Part shown: positions 1 through 41,544 of the stretch, in pieces | Position numbering within the stretch: position 1 is the stretch's first letter | How the letters are laid out: each line of letters opens with the position of its first letter | Source of the DNA: Ehretia macrophylla | Taxonomy: Eukaryota; Streptophyta; Magnoliopsida; Boraginales; Ehretiaceae | Length of the DNA: 64,000 bases | Assembly (NCBI GenBank): GCA_037974665.1 | Contig: CM075768.1 | Span: 4,180,501 to 4,244,500, forward strand | Direction of reading: 5' to 3' | The notes under the pieces: generated by a model | Database searches by the model: none | The model's input: the letters and a program-made list of their open reading frames with translations, nothing else | What the model was told of the DNA's origin: nothing | Program-made: the position numbers and the translations under genes

Positions 1-605
1 GACATAAACTTTGAATTCACAAAATAATTCAAAAATCCCTCACCAAATACGTGTAGAAGCTAGTAGGAAGCTAGAAAACCCATGAAAACACTTGATACTA
101 TCTTGGTAGAGCTTGAAATGCAAGATTGGTTGAACAATGTTTTCTCTTTTTCTTCCTTATGCCTATCGGGTTTGAGGGGGATATGGTTGGCATTTCTTGT
201 ATTGTTTGAGCTATTATGTATGTATATGCATATTAATGTGTATATATAATATATGTATTATGTATATGTATATTAAGTTGACTACAAAAATGGGCCAAAA
301 CTCTTATAAACCTACTTAAATTAAGTCCAAACCCATTAATTCCATTTAGCCCAATAAATCTAATGTTATACTATTCACTCGAACCACTAAAATATTTTCT
401 AAATGAATGCTTCTAACACGCAATGCTCACATACTCATTTTTCACATTCCTCAATTAAGTGATATAATATAAGAAAAATGTTAATTCAAAGAAAAAAAGC
501 AGTAAAATTTTATGTTGAATAGTAATTATTGACAAAAATAAATAAATACACAAATAGTGAATGTAACAGTTATTTAGAAGTACTATAGTGGTCTCGGGTG
601 TCACA
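1..605 (-). repeat. A0 3' LTR, 5' part (truncated by window edge)
   Basis: On the minus strand the LTR begins TGTGACACCC at 605, directly after the purine tract 620-606. It aligns over its length with the family A LTR at 3654 and, less closely, with the F LTR. A TATA-like tract lies around 235-255 and a conserved leader box (AAACCCGATAGGC followed by a GA-rich run) around 175-135. At 44-38 it reads TTG|GTGAGG, a good plant 5' splice site, after 562 nt of LTR. The intronless family A LTRs lack this site, so this copy appears to be an intron-containing relative of family A. Confidence 0.85.
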
Positions 606-1568
606 TTCTCTCCGCATTAAACTAATTGCGTCCACACAATTCTTACATGATTCGACAAATAACTCTGGATATCTAGTTCGCATCTGATCCTCCTTCTCCC
701 AAGTGGCATCTTCTAGTCCAAGATGATCCCACAAAATCTTCACCATCAAAATACTTTTAGTTTTGACCTCTTGAACCTTCCAGTCCATAACCCGAAGAGG
801 TTTTTCAGTATAAGATAAATTCTTACTGATCTCTAGCGGCTCTAGCTCAAGCATATGAGAAGGATCTGGCTGATATTTCCAAAGTATCGAGACATGGAAG
901 ACATCATGAAGTCTGCCCAAACTTGATGGCAAAGCTAATCTGTAAGCCATTGCACCAACTTTCTCTGTAATCTCAAACGGTCCCACATATCTCAGACTGA
1001 GTTTACCCTTTTTTCCATGCCAAATCAAACCTTTACGAGGTGAGATTTTAAGAAATACCCAATCACCCACGGTAAACTCTAGATCATGACGACGTCTATC
1101 TGCATAACTCTTTTGTCGACTCTTTGCTATAAGCATTATTCTCTTGATAAGCTGCACATTATCAATCATTTTGTTCATCTTTGGTATCAAAGTAAGGTCA
1201 ATAGTTTTCATCTTTACAACCTCATCCTAATATAAAGAAGATTTGCATTTACACCCATACAGTGCCTCATACGGTGCCTACTAATAGTAGCTTGGTAACT
1301 ATTATTATAGGCGAATTCTGCAAGTGACAAATATCTCTCCCAACTCTTACCAAAGTCCAGAATGCAGGCTCGTAGCATATCTTCAAGTATTATGATAGTT
1401 CTTTTAGATTGTTCGTCAGTTTGCGGATGATATGATGTGTTGAAGCTCAATGTTGTGCCTAAAGCTTTCTGTATCTTTTGGCAGAACTGAGATGTGAATC
1501 TGGGATCTTTGTCGGATACAATACTCTTTGAAGTCTCGTGAAGTCTAACGATATTCTCAATGTATAGC
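606..1568 (-). pseudogene. A0 integrase C-terminal half plus chromodomain (pseudogene)
   Basis: The minus-strand reading starts inside the integrase core. Around 1450-1330 it shows the YHPQTD motif and the LEDMLRAC segment that carries the third catalytic acidic residue of the DDE triad. A frameshift near 1270 breaks the frame after the NNSYQATI motif. From 1211 to 606 a long open frame holds the GPY/F-type module (VGPFEITEKVG, then LHDVFHVSIL) and ends with a group-II chromodomain (VKILWDHLGLEDATWE, then YPELF), which in this family targets integration to heterochromatin. The gene is cut at 1568 by insertion A1-A2 and continues at 34493. It is non-functional. Confidence 0.85.
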
Positions 1569-1950
1569 TATGACACCCGAGATCACTATCATACTTTCTA
1601 TTAACTGTTACATTCACTATTTGTGCATTTTAAATGTGCCTTCTATTTATTTCTTCTTTTGTTACTATTCAACTCAATTTTTAACTACTTATTTTCTTTG
1701 AATTAACATTTTTCCTAAGCTATAATATCTATTTGAGGAATTAAGGAAATCAACATTTGAGCAAGTCGCGTTAGAAGGGCTCATTTAAAAAATGTTTTAG
1801 CGGTTTGAGTGAATAGTAAAACATTTGTTAGTAGGCTAAATGAAATTAATTGCAATGGATTTGTCTTAAGTAGGTTTTATAAGTTATTTTGGCTTATTTT
1901 TGTTGTCAACGTAATGTACAAATGCATAACATATTTTATATATACACATA
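1569..1950 (+). repeat. A1 5' LTR, truncated
   Basis: This matches the first ~380 bases of the family A LTR at 3654 (CCCGAGATCAC, then the same AT-rich U3). It starts TATGACACCC, a decayed TGTGACGCCC. It stops at the word aatat (1951-1955), where it joins RNase H sequence. The TATA-like tract at about 1937-1944 is the last LTR feature kept; leader, U5 and PBS are gone. Confidence 0.85.
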
Positions 1951-3653
1951 AATATGAGGCAGATGTATTGGTTAAAGCTGCTTGAGGATTATAACTGCAC
2001 TATTAGTTATCTACCAGGTAAAGCCAATGTTGTTGCTGATGCTTTGAGTCGGAATGCTATAATTGCTAGTTTGATTATCAAGAATTGGGAGTTCATGGAG
2101 GAGTTATGCTTGTGGAAACCAAAGACTTCAAATTTAGGCATTCAATTTGCAAGTCTACAAATTCAATCCTTGTTGTTGTCAAGAATTAGAGAAGCGCAAC
2201 AAATTGATCCTCAATTATTGAAAATCTTGGAAAAGTCAAAAGGGGAAGAGTTAGACTTTAAACTTCATGATGATGGAATTCTTAGATTAAAAGGCAGAAT
2301 TTGTATTCCAAGTGAACCAACATTAAAGAAAAAAATACTGGCAGAGGCACACAGTTCAAAGTATACTATCCACCCAGGTAGTACAAAGATGTATAGAGAT
2401 TTGAAGCAGAACTTCTAGTGGAATAACATGAAAATAGAGATTGCTGAATATGTAGCTAGATGCTTGACCTATTAGAAAGTTAAGGCTGAACATCAGAGAC
2501 CTGTTGGGTTATTGCAACCATTGGCTATTCCAAATTGGAAATGGGACCACGTACTATGAATTTCGTGTCAGACTTGCCAAGATCTTCGAAGGGTAATGAT
2601 TCAGTGTAGGTTGTTGTTGATAGACTTACCAAGACTTCTCACTTTATTGCTACGAAGAAAATCGATACTTTTGACAAGTTAGCTAAGCTATATGTTGAGA
2701 ATATTATTAGACTTCATGGAACTCCAAAGAGTATTATGTCCGACAGAGATCCCAGGTTCACATCTCAGTTCTGGTAGAAGATTCAGAAAGCTTTAGGCAC
2801 AATGTTGACCTTCAGCACATCATATCATCCGCAAACTGACGGACAATCTGAGAAAACCATCAGAATACTTGAGGATATGTTACGAGCCTGCATTCTAGAC
2901 TTTGGTAAGAGTTGGGAGATATTTTTATTTTTGTCACTTGCAGAATTTGCCTATAAAAATAGTTACCAAGCTACTATTGGTATTGCACCGTATGAGGCAT
3001 TGTATGGGCGTAAGTGTAGATCTCATTTATATTGGGATGAGGTTCGAGAGATGAAAACTATTGACCCTACTTTGATACCAGAGATGAACATAATGATTGA
3101 TAATATGTAGCTTATCAAGAAGAGAATGCTTACACAGAGTTGGCAAAAGAGTTATGTAGATAGACGCCGTCGTGATCTAGAGTTTACCGTGGGTGATCGG
3201 GTGTTTCTTAAAATCTCACCTCGTAAAGATTTGATTCGGCACCAAAAAAGGGGTAAACTCAGTCCGAGATATGTGGGACCATTTGAGATAACTAAGAAAG
3301 TTGGCGCATTGGCTTACATATTAGCTTTGCCTCCGAGTTTAGGCAGACTTCATGATGTCTTCCATGTCTCGATCCTTCAGAAATATCAGCCAGATCCTTC
3401 TCATATTCTTGAGCCAGAGTCGTTGGACATCAGTGAGACTTTATCTTATACAGAGAGACCTATTCGGGTTGTGGACTGGAAGGTTTAAGAACTTAGAACT
3501 AAAAGCATTTCGATGGTTAAGATTCTGTGTGATCATCATGGGTTGAAGGATGCTACATGGAAGAGGGAGGATCAAATGTGAGAAAGATATCAAGAGTTGT
3601 TCGCTGAATCATGTAAGAATTGCGTGAACGCAATTAGTTTAAGGGAGAGAGGA
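1951..3653 (+). pseudogene. A1 pol remnant: RNase H end, integrase, chromodomain
   Basis: The frame opens directly in the RNase H C-terminus ([16 protein letters not shown], then VADALSR). The integrase zinc-binding H and C residues follow (HPGSTKMYRDLKQ; the CLTC motif is mutated to CLTY), then the DDE core with MNFVSDLP, SDRDPRF and LEDMLRAC, the GPY/F-like module (3126-3480), and a chromodomain-like tail (3500-3600). At least five nonsense codons occur at 2416, 2473, 2607, 2775 and 3579, and all five are also present in A2. Gag, protease, RT and the start of RNase H are deleted. It is not functional and would have depended on another copy. Confidence 0.85.
3618..3653 (+). promoter_or_regulatory. 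A1 pre-PPT palindrome and polypurine tract
   Basis: AATTGCGT (3618-3625) and ACGCAATT (3628-3635) form a perfect 8-bp inverted repeat. It is followed by the purine tract 3641-3653, which primes plus-strand synthesis and abuts the LTR at 3654. The palindrome lies in the last pol codons but recurs in elements without pol. Confidence 0.75.
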
Positions 3654-4841
3654 TATAACGCCCGAGATCACTATCATACTTTCTATTAACTATTACATTC
3701 ACTATTTGTGCATTTTAAATGTGCCTTTTATTTATTTCTTCTTTAGTTACTATTCAACTCGATTTTCAACTACTTATTTTCTTTGAATTAACATTTTTCC
3801 TAAGCTATAATATCTATTTGAGGAATTAGGGAAATGATCATTTGAGCAATTTGCGTTAGGAGGGCTTATTTAAAAAATGTTTTAGCGGTTCGGGTGAATA
3901 GTAAAACATTAGTTAGTAGGCTAAATGAAATTAATTGCAATGGATTTGTCTTAAGTAGGTTTTATAAGTTATTTTGGCTTATTTTTGTTGTCAACGTAAT
4001 GTACAAATGCATAACATATTTTATATATACACATAAATATACATATGTATACATAATAGCTAACACAAAACAAAAAATACCTTAATTACCCCCCCCCCCC
4101 AAACCCGAGAGCAGCCAAGGAAGAAAGGAAGAGGAAAAACTTCAATTTTTACTTGGAAATCTCCATCCTGGGCTCATCTTAACCTTCTACAAGTGCATTC
4201 AAGCCTTCACTAAGCTTCTAAACCTTGAATTGAGGTGCGGAGATTGACCCCCAACTCTTAGTCATACAGGGTGAGGAGGAGGTGCAGTTGGAGGAGTTGC
4301 CTTGATTACTGTATACTTACTACCTGAGGTTAGGGTGTTTGCTAGTTGGACTATGTGAATATTTGCTTGTATTGTATTATGTTCTATTTTGAGCCTATGG
4401 GCTTATGTATATTTATGTAATTGAAGGCTTGTAAAAGATAGATTGATGTAGTATGGTTGTGTAGTATATGCATGTAATAACTTATAACTCTGCTTACTAT
4501 TTTGTTGCATGCTTGTGTTATAATGAAGTTGGTTGGTTGATTAGCTTTAAATTACAAGAATGTTTAAATGATAATGTTAGAGTGGTAAGACAAGTAGATT
4601 AAAAAAAATGGATTTCAGTGGTTTCACCATGCATGCTTGTGTGTGATAATGTCTTGTTTTGTTTAAGGGTCAGATGGCCTTGAAGTTGGGAATTGGTGGA
4701 GTTGGAGATAGTTGTGGTTTGTATTTGTGGCTTTATTTGTTGTTTGCAGGTAAACAGATTGTCCACGGTATAGAGGAGATTCTGTTCATTTGTCGAGTCC
4801 GGACTTAACCTTTTAGCGTGGGGTTGGGTAGAGATGTGACA
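3654..4841 (+). repeat. Shared family A LTR (3' LTR of A1 and 5' LTR of A2), intronless
   Basis: 1188 bp, starting TATAACGCCC (decayed TGTGACGCCC) and ending GATGTGACA. TATATATA is at 4022-4029, a run of 12 C at 4089-4100 and the AAACCCGA leader box at 4101. The junction 4231|4232 is where the donor and acceptor of the long LTR families would have been joined: upstream resembles their exon 1, and from 4232 the sequence aligns gap-free with E and F from their acceptor. Lengths before and after the junction are 578 and 610 nt, against 573 and 595 for F. It is the only full-length LTR here lacking the 1.1-1.36-kb segment. Confidence 0.9.
4234..4305 (+). other. Acidic short reading frame in the A LTR (no start codon)
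   Basis: The 24 codons read GAEIDPQL, then LVIQGEEEVQ, then LEELP and a stop. The same pattern (AEx[DN]PQL, an acidic run, EVQ, LP-stop) appears in the LTRs of E (40985-41053) and F (51183-51258 and 58754-58829, minus strand). A TGA lies directly upstream in frame and there is no ATG, so translation is doubtful. A GA-rich exonic splicing enhancer would give the same pattern. Confidence 0.4.
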
Positions 4842-4847
4842 TTTAGG

Positions 4848-4859
4848 TGGTATCAGAGC
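4848..4859 (+). promoter_or_regulatory. A2 primer-binding site (initiator tRNA-Met)
   Basis: TGGTATCAGAGC, the complement of the 3' end of plant initiator tRNA-Met, lies six bases after the LTR end. It is where minus-strand DNA synthesis begins. Confidence 0.95.
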
Positions 4860-5214
4860 TTATAGGATGCATGAGCCGGGATAGGTTTCTCGGTCTATGG
4901 GGTAGAGGTCTATTATGTGAAAGTATAATTGAATGAATAAGTTTTTCTTTGATTGAATAAATGAAAGATTGATTATGTAAAGAACTTGCTAGCATGAAAA
5001 TGAGAATATGAAATGTCTTTTATGAGTTACTGTATGAATGTGAAAAGTTTAGAATGAAAAGCATGATAAGTGACTTATGTGAAATTTTGTGCCTAAAGTA
5101 TTTACATGATCTTATATGATTTCATGTGAACTTATTTGAGTTTGTTCTTATGTGGTTTATCTCTGGATTATGCATATATGCTTGTCATAATACTTTGCAT
5201 TTTAGTTATCTAAG
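4860..5214 (+). other. A2 untranslated leader
   Basis: AT-rich, non-coding stretch between PBS and gag with reiterated words such as TGATTATGTAA and TTATGTGA. Equivalent leaders occur in B, E and F. It probably contains packaging signals, but none can be recognised. Confidence 0.6.
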
Positions 5215-6330
5215 ATGGGGCCTCGTCATTAGACTAGGAATCAGAATGTTGAGGAGGAAGAAGTGGATCAACAGACGATTAATGCACGGTTGACTACCGC
5301 AATAGGTCAGATTGCATAGGTATTGCAGAGGCAGAGAAGTAATGTACCTACAGTTAATCCCAGACATGGCCGAGGTGGAGCTGAGGGAGGTAACAATAAA
5401 TATCTTGAGAAATTCTTGCACCATGGCCCGTCTAGTTTCTTTGGAGAGCCTGCTGACATTTTGGCTAAGAGATGGATGAATAAGGTTGAGAAAATTCTTG
5501 TTGGCCTTGAGTACACTAATGCGAGGAAGATTGCTTGTGCTGAATTTTTGCTCGAGGGGGATGCCAAGCAGTGGTAGCGCACTGTGAAATCTAGGTGGGA
5601 AGCTGAAGCAACACCACAGACTTAGGCTGAGTTTGTAAGAGAGTTTCAAGAGAAATATATCACAAAGACAGCCAGTGAGAGACAGGATGAATAGTTTATT
5701 TCTTTGAGGCAGGGCAGTATGACAGTTGATCAGTATGATGCTGATTTTACCCGCTTATCCCGTTATGTACCAGCTTTAGTGCAACCAGAGAACAAGAGGA
5801 TTCATAGGTTTATTAAGGGGTTGAGGGCCGATATTTCGTTGGACTTGTCTACTCAAGATTATCCTACTTATGCATCAACAGTTAGGGTGGCTTTGAGATA
5901 TGAGAAACGTAAGACAGATATGTTTAGGGGAGTCAAGTCAGCCCAGTAAGTGACCTCATTAGACGCAGAGTTAGGAATATCAGAGGCAGACTTACTCAGC
6001 TAGTTAGAGTCAGTAGTTGAGGCAGACTCAGAGTTTCACCGGACTTTCTCAAACTCAGGCGCGACCTGTATAGAGTCAGAATCAGGGACAACCACTTCTA
6101 GTTAGAGCACGATCACAGCAGGGTAGTTCAGCTACTTCCATGTATAGAGCTCCTACGGGAGACACTGCTCCAAGAAAAAACTAGCAGTGCAGCTTCTGCT
6201 AGCGTAAGGGACATACATATGAGAATTGTTGGAGAAAATCATGTAAGTGCACGGGTTGCAAAAGTGAGCAACACAGAGTCAAGGATTGCCCTAAATATAA
6301 GAAACCTCAAGGGCAGATGGGTTAGACTAG
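5215..6330 (+). pseudogene. A2 gag (pseudogene)
   Basis: The start ATG at 5215 gives MGPRH and aligns with the F gag start (MGPRRRTENQN). Gag is the structural protein that forms virus-like particles and packages RNA. The retroviral-type capsid region is seen at about 5400-5950 (FFGEPADILAKRW, then FTRLSRYVPAL). Two zinc knuckles follow at 6187-6300: CSFC-x4-GHTYENC, and a second C-x2-C-x4-H-x4-C, both with all ligands in place. Nonsense codons occur at 5230, 5317, 5575 and 5623 and around the Q-rich linker (5946-6190). Most replace Q or W. Confidence 0.85.
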
Positions 6331-7228
6331 AGTGGAAAGTACAGTGCGGGTACAGCGAGCTCAGGCTCGAGCATTTGCTTTGGATGCAGAGGAGTTTCCG
6401 AATATGACTACGGTGGTAGAAGGTACTTTTCTTCTTAATGATCAGTCAGTTAAAGTTTTAATTGACTCTGGGGCTACACATTCATTTATCACACATGTTT
6501 GTGCACAAAATGCTAAATTAAAACATGATAAATTGTTGCATAAGATTGTGGTATATACATCTATGGGTCCGAAGTTTGTTACTGAGTCTATTTGTAAGGC
6601 ATGCAATATTTATATTGAGGGTTGCGTGTTTCCTGCCGATTTGATTATTCTACCTTTTCACGACTTTGAAATTATATTGGGGATGGATTGGTTAAGAATA
6701 TACTATGTACAACTTGATTGTAGGAAGAAGATTGTAAAACTAGAAATGTTTGACCAGCCTGTAATTTAGATAGTTGAAAGTAGAAAATCAACTGGAACTC
6801 CTATAATTTCCTCTATTAAAGAATAAAAAATGTTGGGTAAGGGTTTTGAGGCGTATTTGGCCTATTTAATTAATCAACCTGGGGACAAATTAAAATTGAA
6901 TGAGGTGCCGATTGTAAAAGAGTTTTCGGGAGTATTTCCCGAGGAGTTACTGGGTTTGCCACCTAATAGAATGATAGAGTTTGTGATTGATTTACTGCTA
7001 GGGACTTCCCCTATCTCTAGGACTCTGTATAGAATAGCTCCCCCTGAACTACAAAAGTTAAAGGTACAACTGCAGGGTTTACTTGAGAAAGGATTTATTC
7101 AGCCTAGTTCTTCTCCCTGGGGTGTGCCAGTCTTATTTGTTAAAAAGAAAGACGGATCTCTTCGTTTGTGTATTGATTACCAGAGACTCAATCAAGTGAC
7201 AATAAGAATAAGTATCATTTGCCTTTAA
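6331..7228 (+). pseudogene. A2 protease and RT N-terminal part (pseudogene)
   Basis: The aspartic protease keeps its catalytic triplet in VLIDSGATHSFI (about 6455-6490) and the C-terminal ILGMDWL motif (6675-6700). In this family it cleaves the Gag-Pol polyprotein. A stop at 6767 separates it from the RT lead-in ([12 protein letters not shown], then RIAPPEL, then [13 protein letters not shown]). A frameshift just after LNQVT near 7203 ends the open frame before the RT catalytic sites. Confidence 0.85.
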
Positions 7229-8150
7229 TTGAAGAGCTATTTGATCAGCTATAGGGTGCAAAAGTTTACTCCAAATTTGATCTGAGACAGGGTTACTATT
7301 AGTTAAGAATCCGAAAGGATGATATGCCTAAAACTGCTTTCAGAACAAGATATGTTCACTATGAGTTTGTTGTGCTGCTGTTTGGCTTGACTCCCACCGC
7401 ATTTATGGATTAAATACAAAAATTATATCGACCGTATCTAGACCAGTTTGTGGTTATTTTTATTGATGATATTCTGGTATACTCAAAATTAGAGATTAAG
7501 CACGAGCAACATTTGAGAATTGTGTTACAGACCTTGCTGGAGCATAAACTATTGCCAAATTTAGTAAGTGTGAATTCTGGTTGAAACAAGTTGCTTTTCT
7601 GGGTCACATAATTTCACAAGATGGTATTTCTGTTGATTCGACAGAGATTGAGGTAGTATTGTCATGGAAACGACCTGAGACTATTACCGAGATCTACAGT
7701 TTTCTGGGTTTAATAGGTTATTATAGAAGATTTGTCAAAGATTTCTCTAAAACTGCTGGACCTTTCACTCAGCTTACTCAAAAGAAGACTGTGTTTGATT
7801 AGAATGAGAAATGTGAGGCTAGTTTCTAGGAATTGAAGAAAAGGTTAACTACTGCACCTATTCTTGCTTTGGTTGATAGAACTGACAACTTTGTGATCTA
7901 TAATGATGCTTCAAAGGAGGGTTTAGGTTGTGTGTTGATGCAGAATGGAAAAGTAATTACATATGCCTCAAGAAAATTGAAACCCTATGAACTTAACTAC
8001 CCTACGCATGATCTTGAGCTTGCAGCTATCATCTTTGCACTTAAGAAATTGTGTCACTACTTATGGGGTAACAAATTTGAATTTTTTACAGATCACAAAA
8101 GTCTAAAATATTTGTTCTTGCAGAAAAAGTTGAATATGAGGTAAAGGCGT
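7229..8150 (+). pseudogene. A2 RT core and RNase H N-terminal part (pseudogene)
   Basis: Shifted frames still show the RT palm: KFDLRQGYY near 7275, and [10 protein letters not shown] near 7450-7480 with both catalytic aspartates. From 7581 comes the thumb/connection ([14 protein letters not shown], then [12 protein letters not shown]) and then RNase H with YNDAS in place of the usual YSDAS, DLELAA and TDHKSLKYL, so the catalytic acidic residues are present. Stops at 7233, 7302, 7412, 7800, 7829 and 8142 mostly replace CAG or TGG. Confidence 0.85.
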
Positions 8151-9814
8151 TGGTTAGAGTTGCTTGAGGATTATAATTGCAGTATTAGTTATCTACCAAG
8201 TAAAGCCAATGTTGTTGTTGAGGCTTTGAGCCGAAAGGCTACAGTTGCTAGTTTGATTATCAAGAATTGGGAGTTCATGGAGGAGTTATGCTTGTGGAAA
8301 CCAAAGACTTCAAATTCAGGCATTCAATTTGCAAGTCTACAAATTCAATCCTTGTTGTTGTCGAGAATTAGAGAAGCGCAGCAAACTGATCCTCAATTAT
8401 TGAAAATATTGGAAAAGTCAAAAGGGGGAGAATCAGACTTTAAACTTCATGATAATGGCATTCTTAGATTAAAAGGCAAAATTTGTATTCCAAGTGAACC
8501 AACATTAAAGAAAGAAATCATAGCAGAGGCACACAGTTCAAAGCATACTATCTACCCAGGTAGTACAAAGATGTACATAGATTTGAAACATAACTTCTAG
8601 TGGAATAACATGAAAATAGAGATTGCTGATTATGTAGCTAGATGCTTGACCTGTTAGAAAGTTAAGGCTGAACATCAGAGACCTGCAGGGTTATTGCAAC
8701 CATTGGCTATTCCAATTTGGAAATGGGACCACGTTACTATGGATTTTGTGTCAGACTTGCCAAGATCTTCGAAGGGTAATGATTCAGTGTAGTTTGTTGT
8801 TGATAAACTGACCAAGACTTCTCACTTTATTGCTACGAAGAAAACAGATACTTTTGACAAGTTAACTGAGCTGTATGTTAAGAATATTGTTAGACTTCAT
8901 GGAACTCCAAAGTTATTATGTCCGACAGAGATCCCAGGTTCATATCTCAGTTCTGGTAGAAGATTCAGAAAGCTTTAGGCACAATGTTGACCTTCAGCAC
9001 ATCATATCATCCGCAAACTGACGAACAATCTGAGAGAACCATCAGAATACTTGAGGATATGTTACGAGCCTGCATTCTAGACTTTGGTAAGAGTTGGGAG
9101 AGATTTTTGCCGCTTGTAGAATTTGCCTATAACAATAGTTACCAAGCTACTATTGGTATGGCACCATATGAGGCATTGTATGGGCATAAGTGTAGATCTC
9201 ATTTATATTGGGATGAGGTTGGAGAGATGAAAACTATTGGCCCTACTTTGATACCAGAGATGAACAAAATGATTGATAATGTGCAGCTTATCAAGAAGAG
9301 AATGCTTACACCACAGAGTCGGCAAAAGAGTTATGTAGATAGACGCCATCGTGATCTAGAGTTTACTGTGGGTGATCAGGTGTTTCTTAAAATCTCGCCT
9401 CGTAAAGGTTTGATTCAGCACAAAAAATGGGGTAAATGTAGTCCGAGATATGTGGGACCATTTGAGATAACTGAGAAAGTTGACGCATTGGCTTACAGAT
9501 TAGCTTTGCCTCCGAGTTTAGGCAGACTTCATGATGTCCATGTCTCGATGCTTTAGAAATATCAGCCAGATCCTTCTCATATTCTTGAGCCAGAGCCATT
9601 GGAGATCAGTGAAACTTTATTTTATATAGAGAGACCTCTTCGAGTTGTGGACTGGAAGGTTCAGGAACTCAGAACTAAAAGCATTCTGATGGTTAAGATT
9701 ATGTGTGATCATCACGGGTTAAAGGATATTACATGGGAGAGAGAGGATCAGATGTGAGAAAGATATCCAGAGTTGTTCACTCAATCATGTAAGAATTGCG
9801 TGGGTACAATTAGT
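8151..9814 (+). pseudogene. A2 integrase and chromodomain (pseudogene)
   Basis: It runs from the RNase H tail through the integrase zinc-binding module (8540-8660), the DDE core (MDFVSDLP near 8740; SDRDPRF region near 8920; LEDMLRAC near 9050), the GPY/F-like module (9330-9545) and a chromodomain-like tail (9690-9790). Stops at 8598, 8655, 8790, 8957 and 9755 coincide with those of A1. A small deletion near 9535 removes a residue from HDVFHV and a stop follows. Identity with A1 is high, about 94% in the parts I compared by eye. Confidence 0.85.
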
Positions 9815-9816
9815 TT

Positions 9817-9829
9817 AAGGGGGAGATGA
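9817..9829 (+). promoter_or_regulatory. A2 polypurine tract
   Basis: AAGGGGGAGATGA directly before the 3' LTR start TGTGATGCTC at 9830. The palindrome upstream is decayed in this copy (AATTGCGTGGGTACAATT). Confidence 0.85.
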
Positions 9830-9853
9830 TGTGATGCTCGAGATCACTACCAT
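9830..9853 (+). repeat. A2 3' LTR, first fragment
   Basis: The first 24 bases of the LTR, cut by B after accat (9849-9853). It continues at 29112 with atcat, the slightly diverged second copy of the duplication. Confidence 0.9.
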
Positions 9854-11550
9854 TGTGAAACCTTACTTTTCTATCCTATCTCGTTTTGCGTGTTTATTCT
9901 CGTTTTGCGTGAATTGACATGTTTATATGCTATATGACTTAGAATGTGGTAATTTTGATATTAATACTCCTAGAACATGCTAAATGTGTATTCATGAAAT
10001 TTTAATAAAAAACGGAGTCAGAAATTTTTCGTCGACTTTTAATGAATAGTATTTTCGAAACACGTCCGCTAAAATTTTGAAACTGGTCTTTTGAACCCTT
10101 CTAGACCTAGTCCTCGGACTTTAATAGACCCGTGTTTGATTAAAACGATTTTTAAATTGACTTAGGAATTTATTAGGGTTTTTACACTGACTTTTGTGAA
10201 AATCAAGTTTTAAACCGACTTGGGTGAAATTGTTTGATTGTAAAACTTCTTGTCACCTAAAAATAACCTACTTGAGCTATCTTAGGTGTTGCATATTTGT
10301 TTTGAGCAATGAGATAGCTAAAATGCATTTAAAAGACAAGAAAACACAAAAATACTAAGTTTACTCAACTTTGACTTTATTTAAAATGTTGACCTTTATG
10401 CATATATCACCAACACACATTACAATAGCACAAAAACACACTAAAAATCACCTAGATGGCCGAGAGTTTCATGCGAGAATAAGCCAAGGTTTTCTTCAAG
10501 TTTTCAAAGCAAAATTTCAAAAAAAAAGCTAGTTTTTGTCCGTAGAACTTCGTGCTGAGTTGGATTCCGCTTGTTGGGCACGCATTGCACGTATTTCTAG
10601 GCTTATTTCGCATCAAAGGTGAGAGAAAAATTCTAGATCTCAAAACTCATATTTTGTGTTTATGCGTATAAATAATTATTGAACCGTTAGAATGTTAATT
10701 TGAAGTTAGATTATTGCTCCATGCATGCTAGGGATCATTTATATGTAATCTTATGAGATTTGAACCGTTGTAGCATAATTATTTATTTTCGGGTATTTAA
10801 AATTGATTAATTTGCTAAATGTTGATTATCTTGAGTTGTATTGGTTGAAATCGATTGCCGTCGATTTCTAAAAGTTTGATAATTACGTGGTAGCGCCATT
10901 GTAATGCCGAATTTTCGATTGCGAGGTCGGTGCTAAAGTCCGAAAATTTCAGCCATGACACACTAGGGTTTTAGGGTTATTGGGCATGATTTGGATGTGT
11001 TTTGGTTGGTTTTCGAGGGGGCTAATGTAGTTGATTGAATGGGTGAGTGATAGAAACTGGTTTGGAGTTGTTTGGATTAGTAGAATGTAAGATATGAATA
11101 TTTAAAGTTTAGGTTGTCTTTCTTTAAAATGTTAAATTATGCCTTTAGTTGATTAGGGGTGGTTTGAGTGATTAAATTGTGAGTTGATGATGGGTAAACT
11201 AGGGTTTGATTGTGTGTTTAATGCATGTTCGGTTGGATGGCCTACTTTGTCATCTAACTTAGTTATTTGTTGTTAAATTGATTATTGATATTATTATGAT
11301 GATAATATGATTACTGATTGATTATTGATTGATGATTGATGAACCGGGAGATAGTCAACGGTAAAGGTTGTCCTCATGTGAATGATTGATGTTTATTATT
11401 ATTGCTGAGTGTTTGGTATATGTGTGGCACCTCTCGGGCAGCATCGGGCTGTCGGGTTGATAACGGCATGACTACCAGAGACTACCTTTAGCTCGCATGA
11501 CGGAGGTGTCATGGAGGGAGAGGCTATTGGGGTCCCTTTGGAGCTACACC
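9854..11550 (+). repeat. B 5' LTR, first part
   Basis: Starts TGTGAAACC. A TATA-like CATATATCACC is near 10401 and a leader with GATGGCCGAG near 10453. The donor-like AAAG|GTGAGA has its GT at 10619-10620. The LTR is interrupted at 11550 by solo LTR C1, which sits inside the intron-like segment. Confidence 0.9.
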
Positions 11551-19446: not shown

Positions 19447-20027
19447 TGTGATACCCCGAACCCGGCATGCATTTAATGGCATTTAATTGCATTTAATTAA
19501 GTGTCATCTTAAATGTTAGCATTGAATTTCGTGTTTATTTTTAGTTAAACATTTATTTCTAGCATTATTTTCATATTTCTTTTAGAAGTAATTAAATAAT
19601 ACTTGAGTTAATTATTTTAACGGAGTATCAACTACTTTTCATATTTATGTTACTTGGTTTTATTTTCTTGTACCTTAATGCTCGGTTTTCAATTAAATGA
19701 AAAAGTAGCTCCGAGCCGGAGTGAATTTTCAACTATGTTGCTTTTCAAAAAATTATATTTTTCTTATATTCCATAATATTTAGGTGTTATTCGTTCTTCA
19801 TCGTTTTGTGCATAGCATTTTGAGAGCGATAGTTAGGAAATGATTTCTAGTCCTCAACAAATAGTGAAAATTAGTATTTAGTGTTTTAATTTTAGTATTC
19901 TAGTTGTTGTTGGCTAGAATTATATTTGTGTTAGTTGATTTAAGTTTAAAATGCATAAAATGAATTAGTTTGACCAAGTTTAGTTAGCTTTGACTAATCC
20001 TTGACCTTTTACCTTTTGTTGTCACCT

Positions 20028-20034
20028 TATAAAT
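20028..20034 (+). promoter_or_regulatory. C 5' LTR TATA box
   Basis: TATAAAT in the context GTCACCTTATAAATGC. The same context recurs at 24494-24500 in the 3' LTR and as CACCTTATAAAA at 12289 in C1. It probably fixes the RNA start about 30 nt downstream. Confidence 0.65.
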
Positions 20035-20214
20035 GCATATTTTAAGCAAAACCAAAAGCTCAAAGCTGAAAAAAATAGGCCAAGGGCCGAAAATTCAAGG
20101 GAAAAAGAAGAAAAAAAGATTTCAGCTTCAAATCTTCAAATCTTCGCGAGAGCTTGCACGGGGTTGTTTCCGAGACTTCCAACGTGGATTTCCTAGCATC
20201 TAGTAGTGTCTAAG

Positions 20215-21542
20215 GTGAGGGTTGCATCATTATTTGCGCATTTGAAATTATTGTATTTAAACTTTAATTTTTGTGATTTAGCCGTAGGATGTTATTTTAT
20301 CCATTTTGTTGCTTAAAGAATGTTCCTTGATGATGCTAGAACATGTATTTATAGCTTTTTAGCATTTTCTACGGTTAAATATAGCAATTGTAATTTAAAA
20401 TGTAAATGGAATAGTAAAATATGAATAGTAAACCCTTGTTTCGTACAAGTTGCTCCGTTATGCATTCTGTTGATGTGGAAAGATGCTAGTTATGTTAGAA
20501 TGCTTAAATGTATGGTTTAATTGGATTGTGCAATGAAAAAACGGAGAAAAGTGGCTTGGTACATGTTGGGGTCGTTCCGGTCGAGTTTGGCATTTTATCG
20601 TTTTGCATGAAGGCATTGTCGTAGTATGTCATGGAAGCACTTTAGGTGCAGTAATGACATTGGTTGAGTGATCGGTTGAGGTAGCTGTAGTTCAAACGAG
20701 CAAAGGGGAAAATCGGGGCTTTGCGGGAATTCTAGGGTAAAGTAGGGTTTCGTGGTCTTTAGACGTGCCTTATGGGTTCCTAGAATGAGTGGTGAAGTTG
20801 GTTTCCAAAACTCGTAGCTCGTTTGGAAGTAGTAGCATTGAGAAAGTTGAGGTTATTTAGTGTTTTAGTTGATTTTTATAATGCTTGCTTATATAATGCT
20901 TATTGTGGATTATTATGCTCGTTATACTTGATCATGATTGAATTGTATATCAATTGTTGATAATGCTTGTTAGTGTTGTACTTGTTATTTTATTGATTGT
21001 AAATGCTTATTGTATCGCATGTTGATACTAATCTGCACTTCAGTGCCTTGCTCGATTATCGTTATATTCTTCGTATTGCATTGCATTGTGTCAGGCGCGT
21101 GAGTGACGGGCCTCTCTGGGTAGTCTCGGGCTGCCAGGGTTGGTTGCTCTAGCTCCATGTCCTATTCCCGTTCTTGCTTGGGTTGCCGCCCAGGGAGTTT
21201 TGGGTCGTAGAATTAATAGAGTATGTCCAGAGTACTCTAACGGAAGTTATAAGGTGGGTGAGCCGGCGTGTCATCGTTAAAGTCATCGAAATCATGATCG
21301 GTACATTACTCGTTCGAGTGAACCGAAGCCTTCAAAGTGTGGTATAGCTTTGAATGGTTGTGTTAATGCTTTCTTTGATTGTTTATTGTATTGTCATTTA
21401 TATTGAATGCTTTCTTATTGATTATATTGCTTGATTGTACCTATTTGCATTGCATGATTTTCTTTCTCTCCACCTCGATAACTGTCTCGCCCTCACTGAG
21501 TATACGTGTTGTGTATACTCACTCCTCACCACCACATTTCAG
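20215..21542 (+). other. Intron-like segment of the C 5' LTR
   Basis: Starts TAAG|GTGAGG, an excellent plant donor, and ends TTTCAG|G; 1328 nt. The hairpin GAGTATAC/GTATACTC is at 21498-21520. An upstream intronic module has GGGTCGTAG (21202-21210) and a stem AGAGTA (21218-21223)/TACTCT (21233-21238). Confidence 0.5.
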
Positions 21543-22055
21543 GGAATGGCCATGTTAGCTGGAAAGTTCGTGGTTACGTGAAAGATCGTGCTTGAAGAGT
21601 TGTCTTGCGTGTTATGTGGCTGAGTTGTAGAAAGATGCAAAGATGTATGTTTTCATGTAATGTATGTATTTAGTGTTAAAAGTTATGTAATTAACTTAAC
21701 TAGGTTTATTAGAATGGTATGATAGCCTATTTTATGCAATAGGTTAGTGTAATTCAATTGCCAAGCATGAATGTACTTGTCAAAGATGAGAAGAGATAGG
21801 TTAGCTTTTAAACTGGAAATGTATATTTACTTGTGTTCGCTTGTTGAGAACCAAGACTCAGATGACCTTGAGGTGTTTGTATGGTTGGACACAGTGCTGG
21901 TCCACTTATATGCTATTGCAGGTTTTGCATTTTGCCTAGAAACAGGGGAAACTCCGTCCGTCTTTCCCTAAATTTTATGCCCGGGTTTGGAATTGGGTTG
22001 TGATTAGATTGATAGATAGAACTTCCGGTCTTGAGAGGGATCGGGGTGTTACAGG

Positions 22056-26505: not shown

Positions 26506-26676
26506 GAACGAGAGTTGAGGTCGAAGAAGATTTCGATGGTTAAGGTATTGTGGAAGCATCACGGCATTGAGGAAGCTACTTGGGAGAGACGAGATCAGAT
26601 GCAGCAGCAGTACCCAGATCTGTTCAGTACATCAAGTAAGAATTTCGGGGATGAAATTTCTTTAAGGGGGGGAGAA
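26506..26676 (+). pseudogene. B chromodomain and end of pol, with polypurine tract
   Basis: Resumes the integrase reading after element C: SKKISMVKVLWKHHGIEEATWE, then QQQYPDLF, a group-II chromodomain of the kind thought to bind H3K9-methylated chromatin. The frame is open and runs on into the 3' LTR. Before the LTR lie the inverted repeat AATTTC (26641-26646)/GAAATT (26653-26658) and the purine tract AAGGGGGGGAGAA (26664-26676). Confidence 0.85.
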
Positions 26677-29111
26677 TGTGAAACCCCACTTTTCTATCAT
26701 GTCTCGTTTTACGTGTTTATTCTCGTTTTGCGTGAATTGACCTGTCTATGTGCTATATGACTTAGAATGTGATAATTTTGATATCAATACTCCTAGAACA
26801 TGCTAAATGTGCATTCATGAAATTTTCATAAAAAACGGAGTTAGAAATTTTATCGTCGACTTTTAGTTAATAGTATTTTCGAAACACGTCCGCTAAAATT
26901 TTGAAACTGGTCTTTTTAACCGTTCTAGACCTAGTCCTCGGACTTTAATAGACCTGTGTTTGATTAAAATGGTTTTTAAATCGGCTTAGGAATTTATTAG
27001 GGTTTTTACACTGACTTTTGCGAAAATCGAGTTTTAAGCTGACTCGGGGTGAAATTGTTTGATTGTAAAACTTCTTGTCACCTAAAAATAACCTACTTGA
27101 GCTATCTTAGGTGTTGCATATTTGTTTTGAGCAATGAGATAGCTAAAATGCATTTAAAAGACAAGAAAACACAAAAATACTAAGTTTACTCAACTTTGAC
27201 TTTATTTAAAATGTTGACCTTTATGCATATATCACCAACACACATTACAATAGCACAAAAACACACTAAAAAACACCTAGATGGCCGAGAGTTTCATGCG
27301 AGAATAAGCCAAGGTTTTCTTCAAGTTTTCAAAGCAAAATTTCAAAGAAAAAGCTAGTTTTTGTCCGTAGAACTTCGTGCCGAGTTGGATTTCGCTTGTT
27401 GGGCACGCATTGCACGCATTTCTAGGCTTATTTCACATCAAAGGTGAGAGAAAAATTCTAGATCTCAAAACTCATATTTTGTGTTTATGCGTATAAATAA
27501 TTATTGAACCGTTAGAATGTTAATTTGAAGTTAGATTATTGCTCCATGCATGGTAGGGATCATTTATATGTAATCTTACGAGATTTGAACCATTGTAGCA
27601 TAATTATTTATTTTTGGGTATTTAAAATTAATTAATTTGCTAAATGTTGATTATCTTGAGTTGTATTGGTTGAAATCGATTGCCGTCAATTTCTAAAAGT
27701 TTGATGATTACATGGTAGCGCCGTTGTAATGCCAAATTTTCGATTGCAAGGTCGGTGCTAAAGTCCAGAAATTTCAGCCATGATACACTAGGGTTTTAGG
27801 GTTATTGGGCATGATTTGGATGTGTTTTGGTTGGTTTCCGAGGGGGCTAATGTAGTTGATTGAATGAGTGAGTGATAGAAACTGGTTTGGAGTTGTTTGG
27901 ATTAGTAGAATGTAAGATATAAATATTTGAAATTTAGGTTGTCTTTCTTTAAAATGTTAAATTATGCCTTTAGTTGATTGGGGGTGGTTCGAGTGATTGA
28001 ATTGTGAGTTGATGATTGGTAAACTAGGATTTGATTGTGTGTTTAATGCATGTTCGGTTGGATGGCCTACTTTGTCATCTAACTTAGTTATTTGTTGTTA
28101 AATTGATTATTGATGTTATTATGATGATAATATGATTATTGATTGATGATTGATGAACCAGGAGATAGTCAACGATAAAGGTTGTCCTCCTGTGAATGAT
28201 TGATGTTTATTATTATTGCTGAGTCTTTGGTATGTGTGTGCCATCTCTCGGGCAGCATCGGGTTGTCGGGTTGATAACGACATGACTACCAGAGACTACC
28301 TCCAGCTCGCATGACGGAGGTGTCATGGAGGGAGAGGTTATTGGGGTACCTCGGGTGCGTGAGTTTATGGGAGTCACAAGAAGGCTGTTATGATCGTGAT
28401 GGCGTTTGGAGCTACACCAACTAGTGTATCCTTTATTGAATGGTCATTATAGTTTATGTGATGATAGTATTATTGATGTTATTGTGTGTTTACTTGCTCA
28501 AAGGATCATTTTCCAAGGAGTATAGTGAATACTGTTAGAGATCTATCGGATCCTCACTGGGCTTATTTTATATAAGCTCACTCTCTATTATTGCATGCTT
28601 ACAGGTGTACTTGTGCAGGATTACGGGTACGTGCCTCCTGAAGAGGAAAATATGCCTTACGTGGATGAGTCTTATGTTCCGGAGTCTTATCCTTGATGTT
28701 GTATTGTTTTACTATCTTGTATATTAACTTAGTAGACTTTTATATGCTTTGTAGTTCATGATGTAAAAGATGTTGAAAAGATGATGTTCTAAATGAAGCT
28801 AACTTAGTAGTCTTTCTTTTGTCTATGATTAGGTTGCTAGGTTGGTTTCAACATATTTTGCAATGTATATTAAAGTTCATGTATTATGTTCGAACGGAGG
28901 CGTATAACAAAGAATGATTATTGTATAATATGGTTATGTTGTATGTTGTTATGTAATTGAGAAGTTGTTTGTTGTATGGTTTATGGAGTTTGATATATGA
29001 TGTTTCAATGAGGTTGGTTTAGAGCCTCGGTATCCTATTTACTGTAGTTATACTGCCGAATTTCTGTTGCGTCCTGACTAATTATAGCAGGGGTCGAGTT
29101 GGGGCGGGACA
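26677..29111 (+). repeat. B 3' LTR
   Basis: 2435 bp, TGTGAAACCCC to GGGCGGGACA. The parts are 767 nt, an intron-like 1161 nt and 507 nt. The tail frame ending ESYP-stop is at 28616-28696. Confidence 0.93.
27444..28604 (+). other. Intron-like segment of the B 3' LTR
   Basis: Starts AAAG|GTGAGA and ends CTTACAG|G; 1161 nt. The hairpin GCTTAT (28561-28566)/ATAAGC (28572-28577) precedes the acceptor. Confidence 0.5.
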
Positions 29112-30147
29112 ATCATACTTTCTATTAACTGTTACATTCACTATTTGTGCATTTTAAATGTGCCTTTTATTTATTTCTTCTTTAGCTACTATTCAACTCG
29201 ATTTTCAACTACTTATTTTCTTTGAATTAACATTTTTCCTAATCTATATTATCTATTTGAGGAATTAGGGAAACGAGCATTTGAGCAATTAGCGTTAGGA
29301 TGGCTCATTTAGAAAATGTTTTAGCAGTTCGAGTGAATAGTAAAACATTAGTTAGTAGGCTAAATGAAATTAATTGCATTGGATTTGTCTTAAGTAGGTT
29401 TTATAGGTTATTTTGGCTTTTTTTGTTGTCAATGTAATGTACAAATGCATAACATATTTTATATATACACATAAATATACATATGCATACATAATAACTA
29501 AAACAAAACAAAAAATACCCAAATTACCCCCCAAACCCGAGAGCAGCCAAGGAGGAAAAGAAGAGGAAAAACTTCAATTTTTTCTTGCAAATCTCCATCT
29601 TGAGCTCATCTTAGGCTTCTACAAATGTATTCAAGCCTTCACTAAGCTTTTAAACCTTGAATTGAGGTGCGAAGATTGACCCCCAGCTCTTAGTCGTAGA
29701 GGGTGATGAGGAGGTGCAGTTGGATGAGTTGTCTTGATTACTGTGTGCTTACTGCCTAAGGGTGGAGTGTTTGCTAGTTGGACTATGTGAAGATTTGCTT
29801 GTATTGTATTATGTTCTATTTTGAGCCTATGGGTTTATGTATATTTGTGTAGTTGAAGGCTTGTATAAGATAGATTGATGTAGTATGGTTGTGTAGTAGA
29901 GGCATGTAATAACTTATAACTCTGCTTACTATTTTGTTGCATGCTTGTGTGATAATGAAGTTGGTTGGTTGATTAGCTTTAAATTATAAGAATGTTTAAA
30001 TGATAATGTTAGAGTGGTAAGACAAGTAGATTAAAAAGAATGGATTTCAGTGGTTTCACCATGCATGCTTGTGTGTGATAATGTCTTGTTTTGCTTAAGA
30101 CTCGGATTGCCTTGAAGCTGGGAATTGGTGGAGTTAGAGTTGGAGAT
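29112..30147 (+). repeat. A2 3' LTR, second fragment (intronless)
   Basis: Continues the A2 LTR after B. The intronless junction is at 29663|29664, as in the central LTR. The acidic frame is present with changes that keep it acidic (EGDEEVQLDEL). It is cut by D at gagat (30143-30147). Confidence 0.9.
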
Positions 30148-30601
30148 TGTAACAACCCCAAACCTAACCTTTCTCAAGATTAGATAAAGAGTCTGTAATT
30201 GCAAATTTTAACATACAAAAGGTAGGACTAGTATTACATATTATATAACCTTCGGACTATATCTGAAGTTACAAGTGTTCTTTAACCCCTGACTCAACTA
30301 TGGCAAAACGAGCCTGGATAATCCAACTACCACATACGACCTACATCTCAAAATTTGGGCTAAAGTAAAATACATAGGCTATCTCCCATGGTCCAAAACC
30401 CAAGTCAACTGGGACAGCGTTAACTATAACGTCATATACTAGATGGTGGGGTATGCTAAGATTCTCATAGTCTTCACTGTGTGAGCCTTGCTGGTGCGAA
30501 TTGACCTCAATATCCCTTGGAATTAGAAGATCAGGGTTGCCCATGAAGCCGAATAGGCACATATTGACACTATCTGGTTTTACAATCCATCTCTACTTTA
30601 C

Positions 30602-33737: not shown

Positions 33738-34355
33738 ATTGGGCTTATATACCCAGTGATAGGAAGTTACCCAACTTCCCACACTTGGGTCTAATGGGTC
33801 GGGTCTGCCCATCTAGGGCGACCCAGAATCCAAATCCAACATTTACTTAATAAGTACAAGCACCCTACTATTATTCAACTTATTCGGAGTCTTCAATTCC
33901 AACTTTTAGCATCTTTACATTTCCATCCTAAAGTCTGCAAGCATCCAAGATAACCTAGTACCATAAGCTCATTTAATAATCTATATAACTCCAAGTGCCT
34001 TAGGTTACCCTGTTGCTCTAATAGCCAACTCCAATAACTCAAATGATAACCCAAATGATAGAAGCTAGAATATCAATTTACATTTGGGTTCGCATCTTAT
34101 TACCATTCCAATTCTAGGCAAACCTTATCCAGCTAAGGCAGTTAATAGAATTCCATAACTTTAGCATTTCCAGTTACTTCCAAGCACAAATTATCTTAAT
34201 TTACTTGTTAATTGAAACGAATGCTTAGCTTGATATGCTAGTGTAATACATCTTCTTATTGTAAAGATACCAAACATATAAGTGAAGTAAGCCAAACACA
34301 TGAGGAATACTTATTTCATATACTATTATTCAGGATGTAGGCACAAGTCCTTACA

Positions 34356-34492
34356 GAGATAGTTGTGGTTTGTATTTGTGGCTTTATTTGCTATTTGCAG
34401 CTAACCAGATTGTCCACGGTACAGAGGAGACTCTGTCCGTTTGTCGAGACCGGACTTAACCTTTTAGCGTAGGGTTGGGTCGGGGCATGACA
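34356..34492 (+). repeat. A2 3' LTR, last fragment
   Basis: Resumes after D and ends GGGGCATGACA at 34492. The three fragments sum to 1187 bp after removing duplicated target sites, against 1188 for the 5' LTR. Confidence 0.92.
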
Positions 34493-35272
34493 ACAGCTCT
34501 GCTTGCTTATCAAGGTTATCTGTCTTCTTTGTGGCAATAAAATGAGATGTCTTGGTCAATCTATCAACAACAACCCACACTGAATCATTACCCCTTGAAG
34601 ATCTTGGCAAGTCTAACACGAAATCCATAGTAATGTGGTCCCATTTCCAATTAGGAATAGCCAAATGCTGCAATAACTCAGCAGGTCTCTGATGCTCAGA
34701 TTTAACTTTCTGACAGGTCAAGCATCTAGCTACATAGTCAGCAATCTCTCTTTTCATGTTGATCCACCAGAAGTTCTATTTCAAATCTCTATACATCTTT
34801 GTACTACCTGGGTGGATAGTATACTTTGAATTGTGTGTCTCTGCCAGTACTTCTTTATTTAATGTCGGCTCACTTGGAATACAAATCCTGCCCTTAAATA
34901 TGAGAATGCCATCATCATGAAGTTTGAAATCCGACTCTCCCCCTTTTGAATTTTCTAGGATTTTCAACAATTGAGGATCAGTTTGCTGCGGTTCTTTAAT
35001 TCTTGACAACAATAAGGATTGAATATGTAAACTTGCAAATTGAATGCCCAAATTTGAAGTCTTTGGTTTCCACAAGCATAATTCTTCCATGAACTCCCAA
35101 TTCTTGATAATTAGATTGGCAACCGTAGCCTTTTGGTTCAAAGCATCAGCGACAATATTGGCCTTACCTGGTAGATAATTAATAGTGCAGTTATAATCCT
35201 CAAGTAGTTCCAACTAGCGTCTCTGCCTCATATTCAACTCTTTCTGTGAGAACAGATATTTCAGGCTCTTGT
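34493..35272 (-). pseudogene. A0 RNase H end and integrase N-terminal part (pseudogene)
   Basis: On the minus strand it begins with [17 protein letters not shown] of RNase H and a TAG at 35214 replacing [17 protein letters not shown], the integrase zinc module (HNSK, IHPGSTKMYRD, CLTCQKV) and the first DDE aspartate in ITMDFVLDLPRSS follow. Another TAG lies between the blocks near 34770. The gene is cut at 34493 by A1-A2 in the middle of DKQAELL and continues at 1568. It is better preserved than A1 or A2 although it hosts them. Confidence 0.85.
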
Positions 35273-35692
35273 TGTTATGCCCTAACTTGACCCTACTTAC
35301 GATTAGTCAGGACGCAACGAAATTTCGGCAATATAAAGTCTGTAATATGGACAACAGAGCTCTAAACCAACCCTTTACAACATCACACAACCAACTACAA
35401 CCTTAACAACAACTCCAACAGTCATTCCATTCACATACAACACATTCAAACCATTCATTACACAAGCATACGACATTCCAACCATAATTCATATGCCTCC
35501 GTTTCAACAACATAACACAAGTTGTACTATACATATGCATAATAAATATTAAACTAGACTAGCAACCTACTCATAATCCAAAGTAAGACAACTAAACTAG
35601 CAGTATACTTTGCACTATCTTTATAACATCTTATACAATACAAACTTGTTCAAATATACAAGACAACAAAAAAGAGAACTCCATCCAAGACA

Positions 35693-39087: not shown

Positions 39088-39658
39088 TATGAAGCCCGGG
39101 AATTTCATCACATCTTTTAAATAACTGTTGCATAATTACTTGAACATTTTATGTGCATTTCTTTTCTAGTTTAATTGCTTTACTATTGGACACTATTTAT
39201 AAGAAATTTGACTGTCTTAGATACTCGATTTAATATTTTTCCTAAACTACATGACTTATAAAAGGAATCGGAAACTTGTCATTTTAGACTTTAGAGGCCG
39301 GGAACATGCATTGGAAAAATAATTTATGCTTCGTTGAATAGTATTACGTAAGTATAAACATTAGTTTCAATTACTTAGCATTTAATTTGAGCTTTATCTT
39401 GGTTTGACTAATTCTTAGCTAACATTTGACTTGTTAAAATAGATATACTTGTACATAGATAACTAATACTACTCATACATGCAATATACTCATAAAAAAA
39501 AAGCAAAACTTCTCAAAATACCCCCCAAACCCGATGGCTCCCTAGAAGAGAAAGAAGGAGATTTATTCATCAATCCTTGCAAGGTTGGCTTCTAGGCTTG
39601 ATCTTGGGGAGTTTTGGAGCTTCTAGGACTTCTTCAACTAATCTACACCTATAATATT

Positions 39659-40979
39659 GTGAGGGAGTTGCATTATTTTAAGTTTAAAGTTTGTTTCAAT
39701 TGTTTTGAAATTCTTGTATTGTCAATTGTAGCTATATTACTTGTTATGAATGCTTGATATATGATCTCTAGAGCCTATAGAGCTATCTTTGTAGCTTGAT
39801 AACAAACTCCATGGTTGAATGCTTGAATCTCACAAAGAAGACAATAAATAGTGGCGTTTTCTAGGGTTTTGCTATAACTTGCTAATTAGAGTGAATTGAG
39901 GCTTCCTTTAGGTGCTCTAGACATTAGTGAAACTAGTTAGAAGCTTACATGAAGTTGAATTACCCAAAATTGAGCAAAAATGCAAAATTGGCTAACTTTA
40001 AAAGAGGGGTATTTCACATAACGTAATCCGGGCATATTTGGACTTTAGATTAGGTATCCTTGGGCCATGGAAGCACTTTTGGTGCTTTCGTTGTGTGAAA
40101 TTGGGGTTCGAATAGAGTACGTGTAGTAAAAACCCACTCGGGGCTTTCCCGAGCTTTTGTCTCCAAAGTGGGGTTTCAGGGTCTAGGTAGGTGTCTTTTG
40201 GCCTTCCTAGGGATGTAGAATGTCTGGATTGTGAATTTGGTATCTTGAATCTTGCGTGGGAGAAGAAATTGCATGGTTAACAAAGGGAAAAAGGTGAAAA
40301 TAGATGCTTTGGTGTTTATAAGAACTTGTAGATGCTTGCTAGGTGTTATATGCTTGGAAAATATATGTTTAAGCTATTTATAGAGTTTTGTGGGAAATCA
40401 TGGTATTTGTCTCTTTTGTGACCATATAGTTGTTTCGTGTATATTTGGCTTATATTGTGAATAATTGCGAGGGCGGCCTGCTTTGTCGTCTCTCTTATGT
40501 GTTATTTGATGATCTTGGTTCTCGCGGACTTGTTTCGGGGTTGCGCAACCTTTTCGGACATGGTAGCGTCGAGAAACACGGGCGGTATTGGGTTTTCCGT
40601 GTTCCCTCGACTACCAATGTGCCTATTCCCTTTCTCTCGCTGAGTATACTCCACTACCCCAGAGGCGTGGTTCACGTCGTTGGGGCATATGAACCTACCT
40701 CAAGAGAAAGGGTTGTAGGATCGGGGTACATCCGAAGTACCCCATTTTGGAGGAATAAGGGTTTTGCCGGCACTTTCTTGAAGATCTAGGCTCGTGGCTC
40801 GTGATTGAAGACAAGTTGAACCGTATCATTTTTATATGTGGTTAATTACTTGTTTAACTAGTTGTGTTATTTGGTGTTGAGTATGTTGTTATCTTGTTGC
40901 ATATCATGTTGCCCGGTATACTACATCACCTCCCTCGCTAGGCAACATTGTTGCTCACTCTGCATTTAACATGTTTCAG
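39659..40979 (+). other. Intron-like segment of the E 5' LTR
   Basis: Starts ATATT|GTGAGG and ends GTTTCAG|GAG; 1321 nt. The acceptor hairpin is GCAAC (40942-40946)/GTTGC (40950-40954). The intronic module has GGTTGTAGGAT (40711-40721), a perfect stem GGGGTAC (40723-40729)/GTACCCC (40737-40743), and GCCGGC at 40765-40770. The sequence after the acceptor aligns gap-free with the A LTR from 4232. Confidence 0.55.
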
Positions 40980-40984
40980 GAGAA

Positions 40985-41053
40985 GCTGAGGTGAACCCCC
41001 AACTAGTAGTAGTAGAGGAAGAAGAAGAAGTACAAGTAGATCAACTTCCGTGA
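40985..41053 (+). other. Acidic short reading frame in the E LTR
   Basis: The codons read AEVNPQL, three V, an EEEEE run, VQVDQLP and a stop. The 3' LTR copy has a stop after NP. An in-frame TAA lies just upstream of the acceptor in unspliced RNA, and there is no ATG. Confidence 0.35.
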
Positions 41054-41544
41054 TTTTCTTGTGTGTTAAGGTTGGCTGATATGTGTGGCTTGTATGGAAG
41101 ATGTTGGTTGTTGTTCTTTTTGAGACCTTGTGGTCTTGTATGTATTTAGTGGTTCTAACTAATTTGTAATCTTGTATGTTGGATAGCAAAGTAGATGGCA
41201 TGTAATAACTGATAATAGAGTTACTGCTTTTGTTGTTTGCATGCTTGTGTGAACTTAGTTTATAAGTATAGCTTAATACTTATAACTTAGAGTTTGGAGA
41301 AATGTCTTGCATGCTTGTATGGTATATACATTTTGTTGTTCCAAGGCTCAAATGGCCTTGAGGAGCTGGTTGGCTTTGTGAATCTTGAAAGCTAGGTTGT
41401 ATGAATGTTTGATTGTGGTTCAGGAATTGTATGTGACTATTTGCATGTACCAGTTTGGTCCATGGTATAGAGGAGACTTTGTCTATGTGACGGGTCCGAA
41501 CTTGACCTATAGCGTGGGGTTGGGTTCAGGGCGTTACATTTAGG

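Follow-up and report, generated by a model that had tools for sequence, protein, structure and literature searches.

The window and its LTR elements

The window, the whole stretch of 64,000 nucleotides that was analyzed (C5:4180501-4244500 of a 1.58-Gb genome; C-numbers denote contigs and L-numbers LTR copies), contains a retrotransposon, A, with intronless LTRs, together with intron-bearing LTRs (Table 1; a slash marks an exon boundary or junction throughout). A has two LTRs and a short target site duplication, as LTR retrotransposons do, and a primer-binding-site-like stretch, TGGTATCAGAGC at 4848-4859, adjoins the LTR; its tRNA identity is presumed. The part at 1569-9853 is a tandem LTR-internal-LTR-internal-LTR arrangement whose first unit has suffered a deletion. 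The motif AATAT is present in both partners of the deletion break.

Pfam placed the domains of A in the order RVP_2 (6326-6769), RT_RNaseH (7830-8144) and Tf2-1-like SH3 (8960-9556), that is, protease, RNase H and integrase part, the order expected of a Ty3/gypsy element. Two of the five internal pieces of A (6827-7228 and 8145-8600) gave no Pfam match, and an integrase core was found only in a related element at 45356, under its curated cut-off. A chromodomain (Chromovirus, Tekay-like) was not matched by Pfam in 9557-9757 of the decayed A, nor in three pieces of element E. Element E spans 39088-49028 and element F, on the minus strand, 50665-60735. The exon lengths that the earlier note had given for A, A0, E and F were recounted and are unchanged (Table 1). 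Another long-LTR group (about 2.4-2.6 kb) is represented by 9854-11537 with 14260-14957, by 26535-29108, by 35273-37845 and by 60736-63156; matches between its different members are 67-71% alike.

Table 1. Coordinates of the features discussed, in window positions
Feature	Position	Strand	Basis or detail
A0 U3 + exon 1 (intron-bearing)	44..605	-	562 nt; intron from 43, leaves window
A0 pol, left flank of insertion	606..1563	-	sequence comparison
5' target site duplication ATAGC (ACAGC in duplicate copy)	1564..1568	+	5' flank same as copy starting C5:4475252
A, first LTR, 387-nt stub fused to pol at 1951-1955	1569..1955	+	95.6% to 3654-4040
A, U3 + exon 1, intronless LTR	3654..4231	+	sequence comparison; 578 nt
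A, intronless junction CTTGAATT/GAGGTGC	4231..4232	+	junction search and relatives' splice sites
A, exon 2 (U5 end), intronless LTR	4232..4841	+	sequence comparison; 610 nt
A, decayed Ty3/gypsy-type internal region (protease, RNase H, integrase-end SH3 pieces)	4842..9835	+	Pfam
A, primer-binding-site-like stretch adjoining LTR end	4848..4859	+	sequence
A, last LTR, start, split by later insertions	9836..9853	+	sequence comparison
More distant intron-bearing LTR	19447..22054	+	intron 20215-21542, GTGAGGG donor, CAG acceptor
A, last LTR, middle piece, junction 29663/29664	29109..30150	+	sequence comparison
A, last LTR, end	34355..34492	+	sequence comparison
3' target site duplication ACAGC	34493..34497	+	3' flank begins ACAGC in both copies
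A0 pol, right flank of insertion, resumes at 63158	34498..35272	-	sequence comparison
E first LTR (intron-bearing)	39088..41538	+	exon 1 39088-39658 (571), intron 39659-40979, exon 2 40980-41538 (559)
F LTR (intron-bearing)	58236..60735	-	exon 1 60735-60163 (573), intron 60162-58831, exon 2 58830-58236 (595)

The LTR intron and the intronless junction

Splice sites were compared in 26 intron-bearing LTRs, a sample that excludes the second LTR of the 19447 element and the intron-bearing L068; the donors of L056 and L059 were unmappable, which leaves 24 mapped copies. The homologous donor is GT in 23 of these 24 (GA in L050), the acceptor is AG in 21 of the 26 LTRs and AA in five, and intron length in the mapped copies is 1217-1348 nt. 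Conservation of both splice sites at constant positions is the pattern of a spliceosomal GT-AG intron. Among ten representatives aligned, nine have an intact GTGAGG, including the LTR at 19447, and L061 has GTAAGG. The interior of the A0 intron is partly alignable with the introns of E and F; the intron of the 19447 LTR has one 61-base match only with that of A0 and none with that of E at the threshold used. These comparisons suggest a Ty3/gypsy-type LTR group with a putative GT-AG intron of 1.2-1.35 kb lying wholly within each LTR, between the U3/leader and the end of U5, and this intron is probably spliced in cells. The five non-AG acceptors (L042, L051, L052, L059 and the one at window position 48464) all have CAA replacing CAG, which would fit decay of a methylated CHG site.

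In A, CTTGAATT at the end of exon 1 abuts GAGGTGC without an intron, both in the LTR at 3654-4841 (4231/4232) and, identically, in its last LTR (29663/29664), just as the earlier note had described. The exon-1 relatives on C6 have a donor at this point, CTTGAATT/GTGAGGG (L042, L044-L046 and L049; L043 has CTTCAATT). Across L042-L046, CTTGAATT/GTGAGGGATTTTCAC (again CTTCAATT in L043) is followed about 1.25 kb on by ATGTTTYAR/GAGGTRYTGAG. Since the donor and acceptor of these relatives fall exactly at the junction, whose placement is ambiguous by 1 nt (G), the junction in A is, as judged against the C6 copies, the predicted splice product to the base.

The genome was searched with a query of 164 bases with the junction at query 82/83, and 40 of 239 candidates were scored. 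Four matches were continuous across the junction. The other 36 cover a single exon: 8 are confined to exon 1 and end at query 81-86, and 28 are confined to exon 2, of which 27 begin at query 83-84 and one at 90, 7 bases past the junction. That 36 of the 40 scored matches break there, 35 of them within 4 nt, indicates that the position of the junction is not a matter of chance. The check for ragged deletion ends proposed in the earlier note was run on a sample of LTRs, and the junction is identical in all four intronless LTRs. A hand count over the first 24 bases of exon 2 also returned the 18 identities between A and F reported before.

One insertion and its relatives

The continuous junctions (among the 40 scored of 239) lie in two LTRs of the element in the window and in both LTRs of a copy at C5:4475252-4482643, 291 kb away. 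That copy has ACAGC at both ends, the window copy has ATAGC and ACAGC, and the nearly identical flanks of both are the pol of an oppositely oriented A0. Moreover, C5:4181563-4249588 is collinear with C5:4474745-4496236, in pieces of 89-94% identity, and the duplicated segments carry a nested retrotransposon pair and, in each copy, different later insertions. From the flanks and target duplication that they share and from the collinear surroundings we conclude that both intronless copies descend from one insertion, duplicated with its surroundings. An assembly artefact is unlikely, given those different later insertions and a difference of about 6-11% between the copies. The earlier note had treated A as a family. 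A spreading family was rejected when the shared flanks of both copies were found; the copies represent one insertion, multiplied by segmental duplication and tandem rearrangement. The LTR-LTR distance (K2P) is 0.0777 in the window copy and 0.0805 in the second copy (about 7-8%), and LTRs that correspond between the copies are 93.1-93.3% identical. Because the two kinds of distance are about equal, insertion and duplication seem to have been close in time, unless gene conversion blurs the distances.

At least one intronless insertion is thus known, a lower bound because the DNA searches scored 40 candidates each, of 239, 3565 and 9260. Possibly, this insertion arose from an intronless lineage that had already begun to spread, and whose remaining members were lost or are too diverged to score. 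This would refine, and not exclude, the origin proposed below, and we consider it rather unlikely. Diverged members could be missed in searches of this depth, and the strict pattern of exon-1 motif plus exon-2 start, which found two places, both in this insertion, recovers only two of the four known intronless LTRs; the same exon-1 motif followed by a donor occurs at 11 places. Against such a lineage, every continuous junction found belongs to the one insertion, and an uncontrolled 24-nt splice-product probe for another exon-1 type found none with up to 3 mismatches.

Trees were built from 29 LTR rows, with the 19447 element left out, and rooted at the midpoint. The U3+exon-1 tree unites the four intronless LTRs in a single clade (100/99), nested in a 100/100 clade of 13 rows in which the other nine are intron-bearing (L058 on C13, L042-L046 and L047-L049 on C6). 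In the exon-2 tree they again form one clade (97/99), whose backbone position is not resolved. The proposal that intronless copies are nested within intron-bearing ones is thus borne out by the first tree, whereas the second supports the clade but not its position. Branches are long for L048, L056, L059 and L060 in one tree or the other, and the U3 tree includes rows (L056, L059 and those of E) that align with the U3 of A over short stretches only. We regard as almost certainly wrong the alternative that LTRs without the segment came first and that the other families gained it by insertion, even though the exon-2 tree does not place the clade and the roots are midpoints. In the 24 mappable LTRs, which belong to several families, homologous donors and acceptors bound the segment at one and the same position, its interior partly aligns between A0 and E/F, and the U3+exon-1 tree nests the intronless clade among intron-bearing LTRs.

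The closest U3 relative scored (40 of 3565 candidates), C15:21531030 (L068), is intron-bearing and 86% identical, and the nearest exon-1 relatives (L058 on C13, and the C6 copies) are likewise intron-bearing. Ten relatives were compared along the LTR, with identities averaged over the four intronless LTRs. L068 is the closest of the ten at LTR positions 151-300 (90.7%, next 85.2%) and 301-410 (87.2%, next 84.0%). At positions 411-480 L058 has 89.2% against 86.7% for L068, and at 481-578 L068 has 50.6% against 87.6-92.0% for the C13 and C6 copies. Much of U3 (window 3804-4063) is nearest to C15, and the end of exon 1 (4134-4231) to C13/C6 (L058, L042). With the junction query (40 scored of 239), the best exon-1 matches are C6 copies and the best exon-2 matches lie on C10, C18 and C17. 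Because different parts resemble different relatives, the immediate parent of the intronless LTR was not found. The LTR appears to be mosaic and to change affinity near where transcription probably starts, which could reflect a strand transfer involving two RNAs or mixing at an earlier time. A recombination event located exactly at the edges of the intron was also considered; it is weakened by the intron-bearing L058 (C13), in which a C6-like exon 1 is joined to an exon 2 that groups with C10/C17/C19 (85/96).

Origin of the intron loss and known systems

When an LTR element replicates, the 5' end of its RNA supplies the U5 of both new LTRs, so that one cycle through a spliced RNA would clear both LTRs of the intron. 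Intron-keeping copies would derive from an unspliced RNA template. Once, a genomic RNA with a spliced leader would have been used as template, and the new U5, taken from the 5' end of this RNA and given to both LTRs, would have made the insertion intronless at both ends. The intronless copy would then have landed in the pol of an older A0, with a 5-bp duplication, and a later duplication would have placed a second copy of the region about 291 kb off on the same chromosome. This course of events, with reverse transcription of a spliced genomic RNA followed by insertion into A0 pol and segmental duplication, very probably explains the intronless LTRs. The first step had been suggested in the earlier note and is supported by the exact junction, by the loss in both LTRs of an insertion flanked by its target site, and by the same junction in four copies. 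A junction equal to the splice product, and loss in both LTRs of one insertion, are also what is looked for in a processed retrocopy, and A shows both.

We infer that the intron was removed by an RNA step and not by DNA deletion. One G is common to both edges, and a deletion by end joining at a 1-nt microhomology in one LTR, followed by gene conversion to the other LTR, is formally conceivable. Such a deletion, however, must have coincided with both splice sites at single-base precision and afterwards reached the second LTR, and all four LTRs share the loss though the LTRs within each copy differ by 7-8%. We therefore hold it to be highly improbable; a single odd DNA event keeps this small probability because one insertion is known, without repetition.

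The intron is kept across diverged families, and an LTR intron should go whenever spliced RNA is copied; its persistence would mean that the replication RNA stays unspliced. The single precise loss would be natural evidence that the LTR intron undergoes splicing and that a spliced template can, on rare occasions, get through the whole cycle. The LTR intron might be a standing switch of RNA fate, with spliced RNA going to translation and unspliced RNA to replication, because the intron would contain something required for replication (for packaging, export or end formation), and the intronless insertion a rare leak and a dead end. We advance this only tentatively; if true, it would account for only one intronless insertion having been found. 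The insertion may also preserve the trace of a strand transfer from one packaged RNA to another, of which one had been spliced, since its U3 resembles the C15 copy and its exon-1 end the C13/C6 copies.

Foamy viruses provide a case of natural reverse transcription of spliced RNA that yields a precisely shortened provirus. They are animal retroviruses, however, and their intron is in the accessory-gene region, whereas the one concerned in A is in the LTR leader. Plant LTR elements are generally without introns, with Ogre and EVADE as exceptions, according to the accessible part of a 2025 review (PMC12786077). A literature search of titles and abstract starts, with subscription papers mostly beyond reach, found no report of an intron within a plant LTR, and the accessible parts of PMC7010299 and PMC4558846 describe no intron lying inside an LTR. 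Ogre, like the group described here, is plant Ty3/gypsy; its intron, as given in the available portions of two sources, lies between the gag-pro and RT-RH-INT frames and survives replication by partial splicing (PMC6317226, PMC12786077), whereas here the intron is in the LTR leader. In EVADE and BARE, splicing for a short GAG separates translated RNA from full-length RNA, as summarized in the same part of the review (PMC12786077); these elements differ from the LTR-intron group in being Ty1/copia, with an internal intron. The logic of intron loss in A is shared with the partially spliced RNAs of Ogre and EVADE and with the 1985 experiment on Ty1, outlined in that review, in which an engineered intron vanished once spliced RNA was reverse transcribed and inserted (PMC12786077). 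The Ty1 intron was engineered, whereas the one concerned in A would be natural and inside the LTR, so that one event would clear both LTRs.
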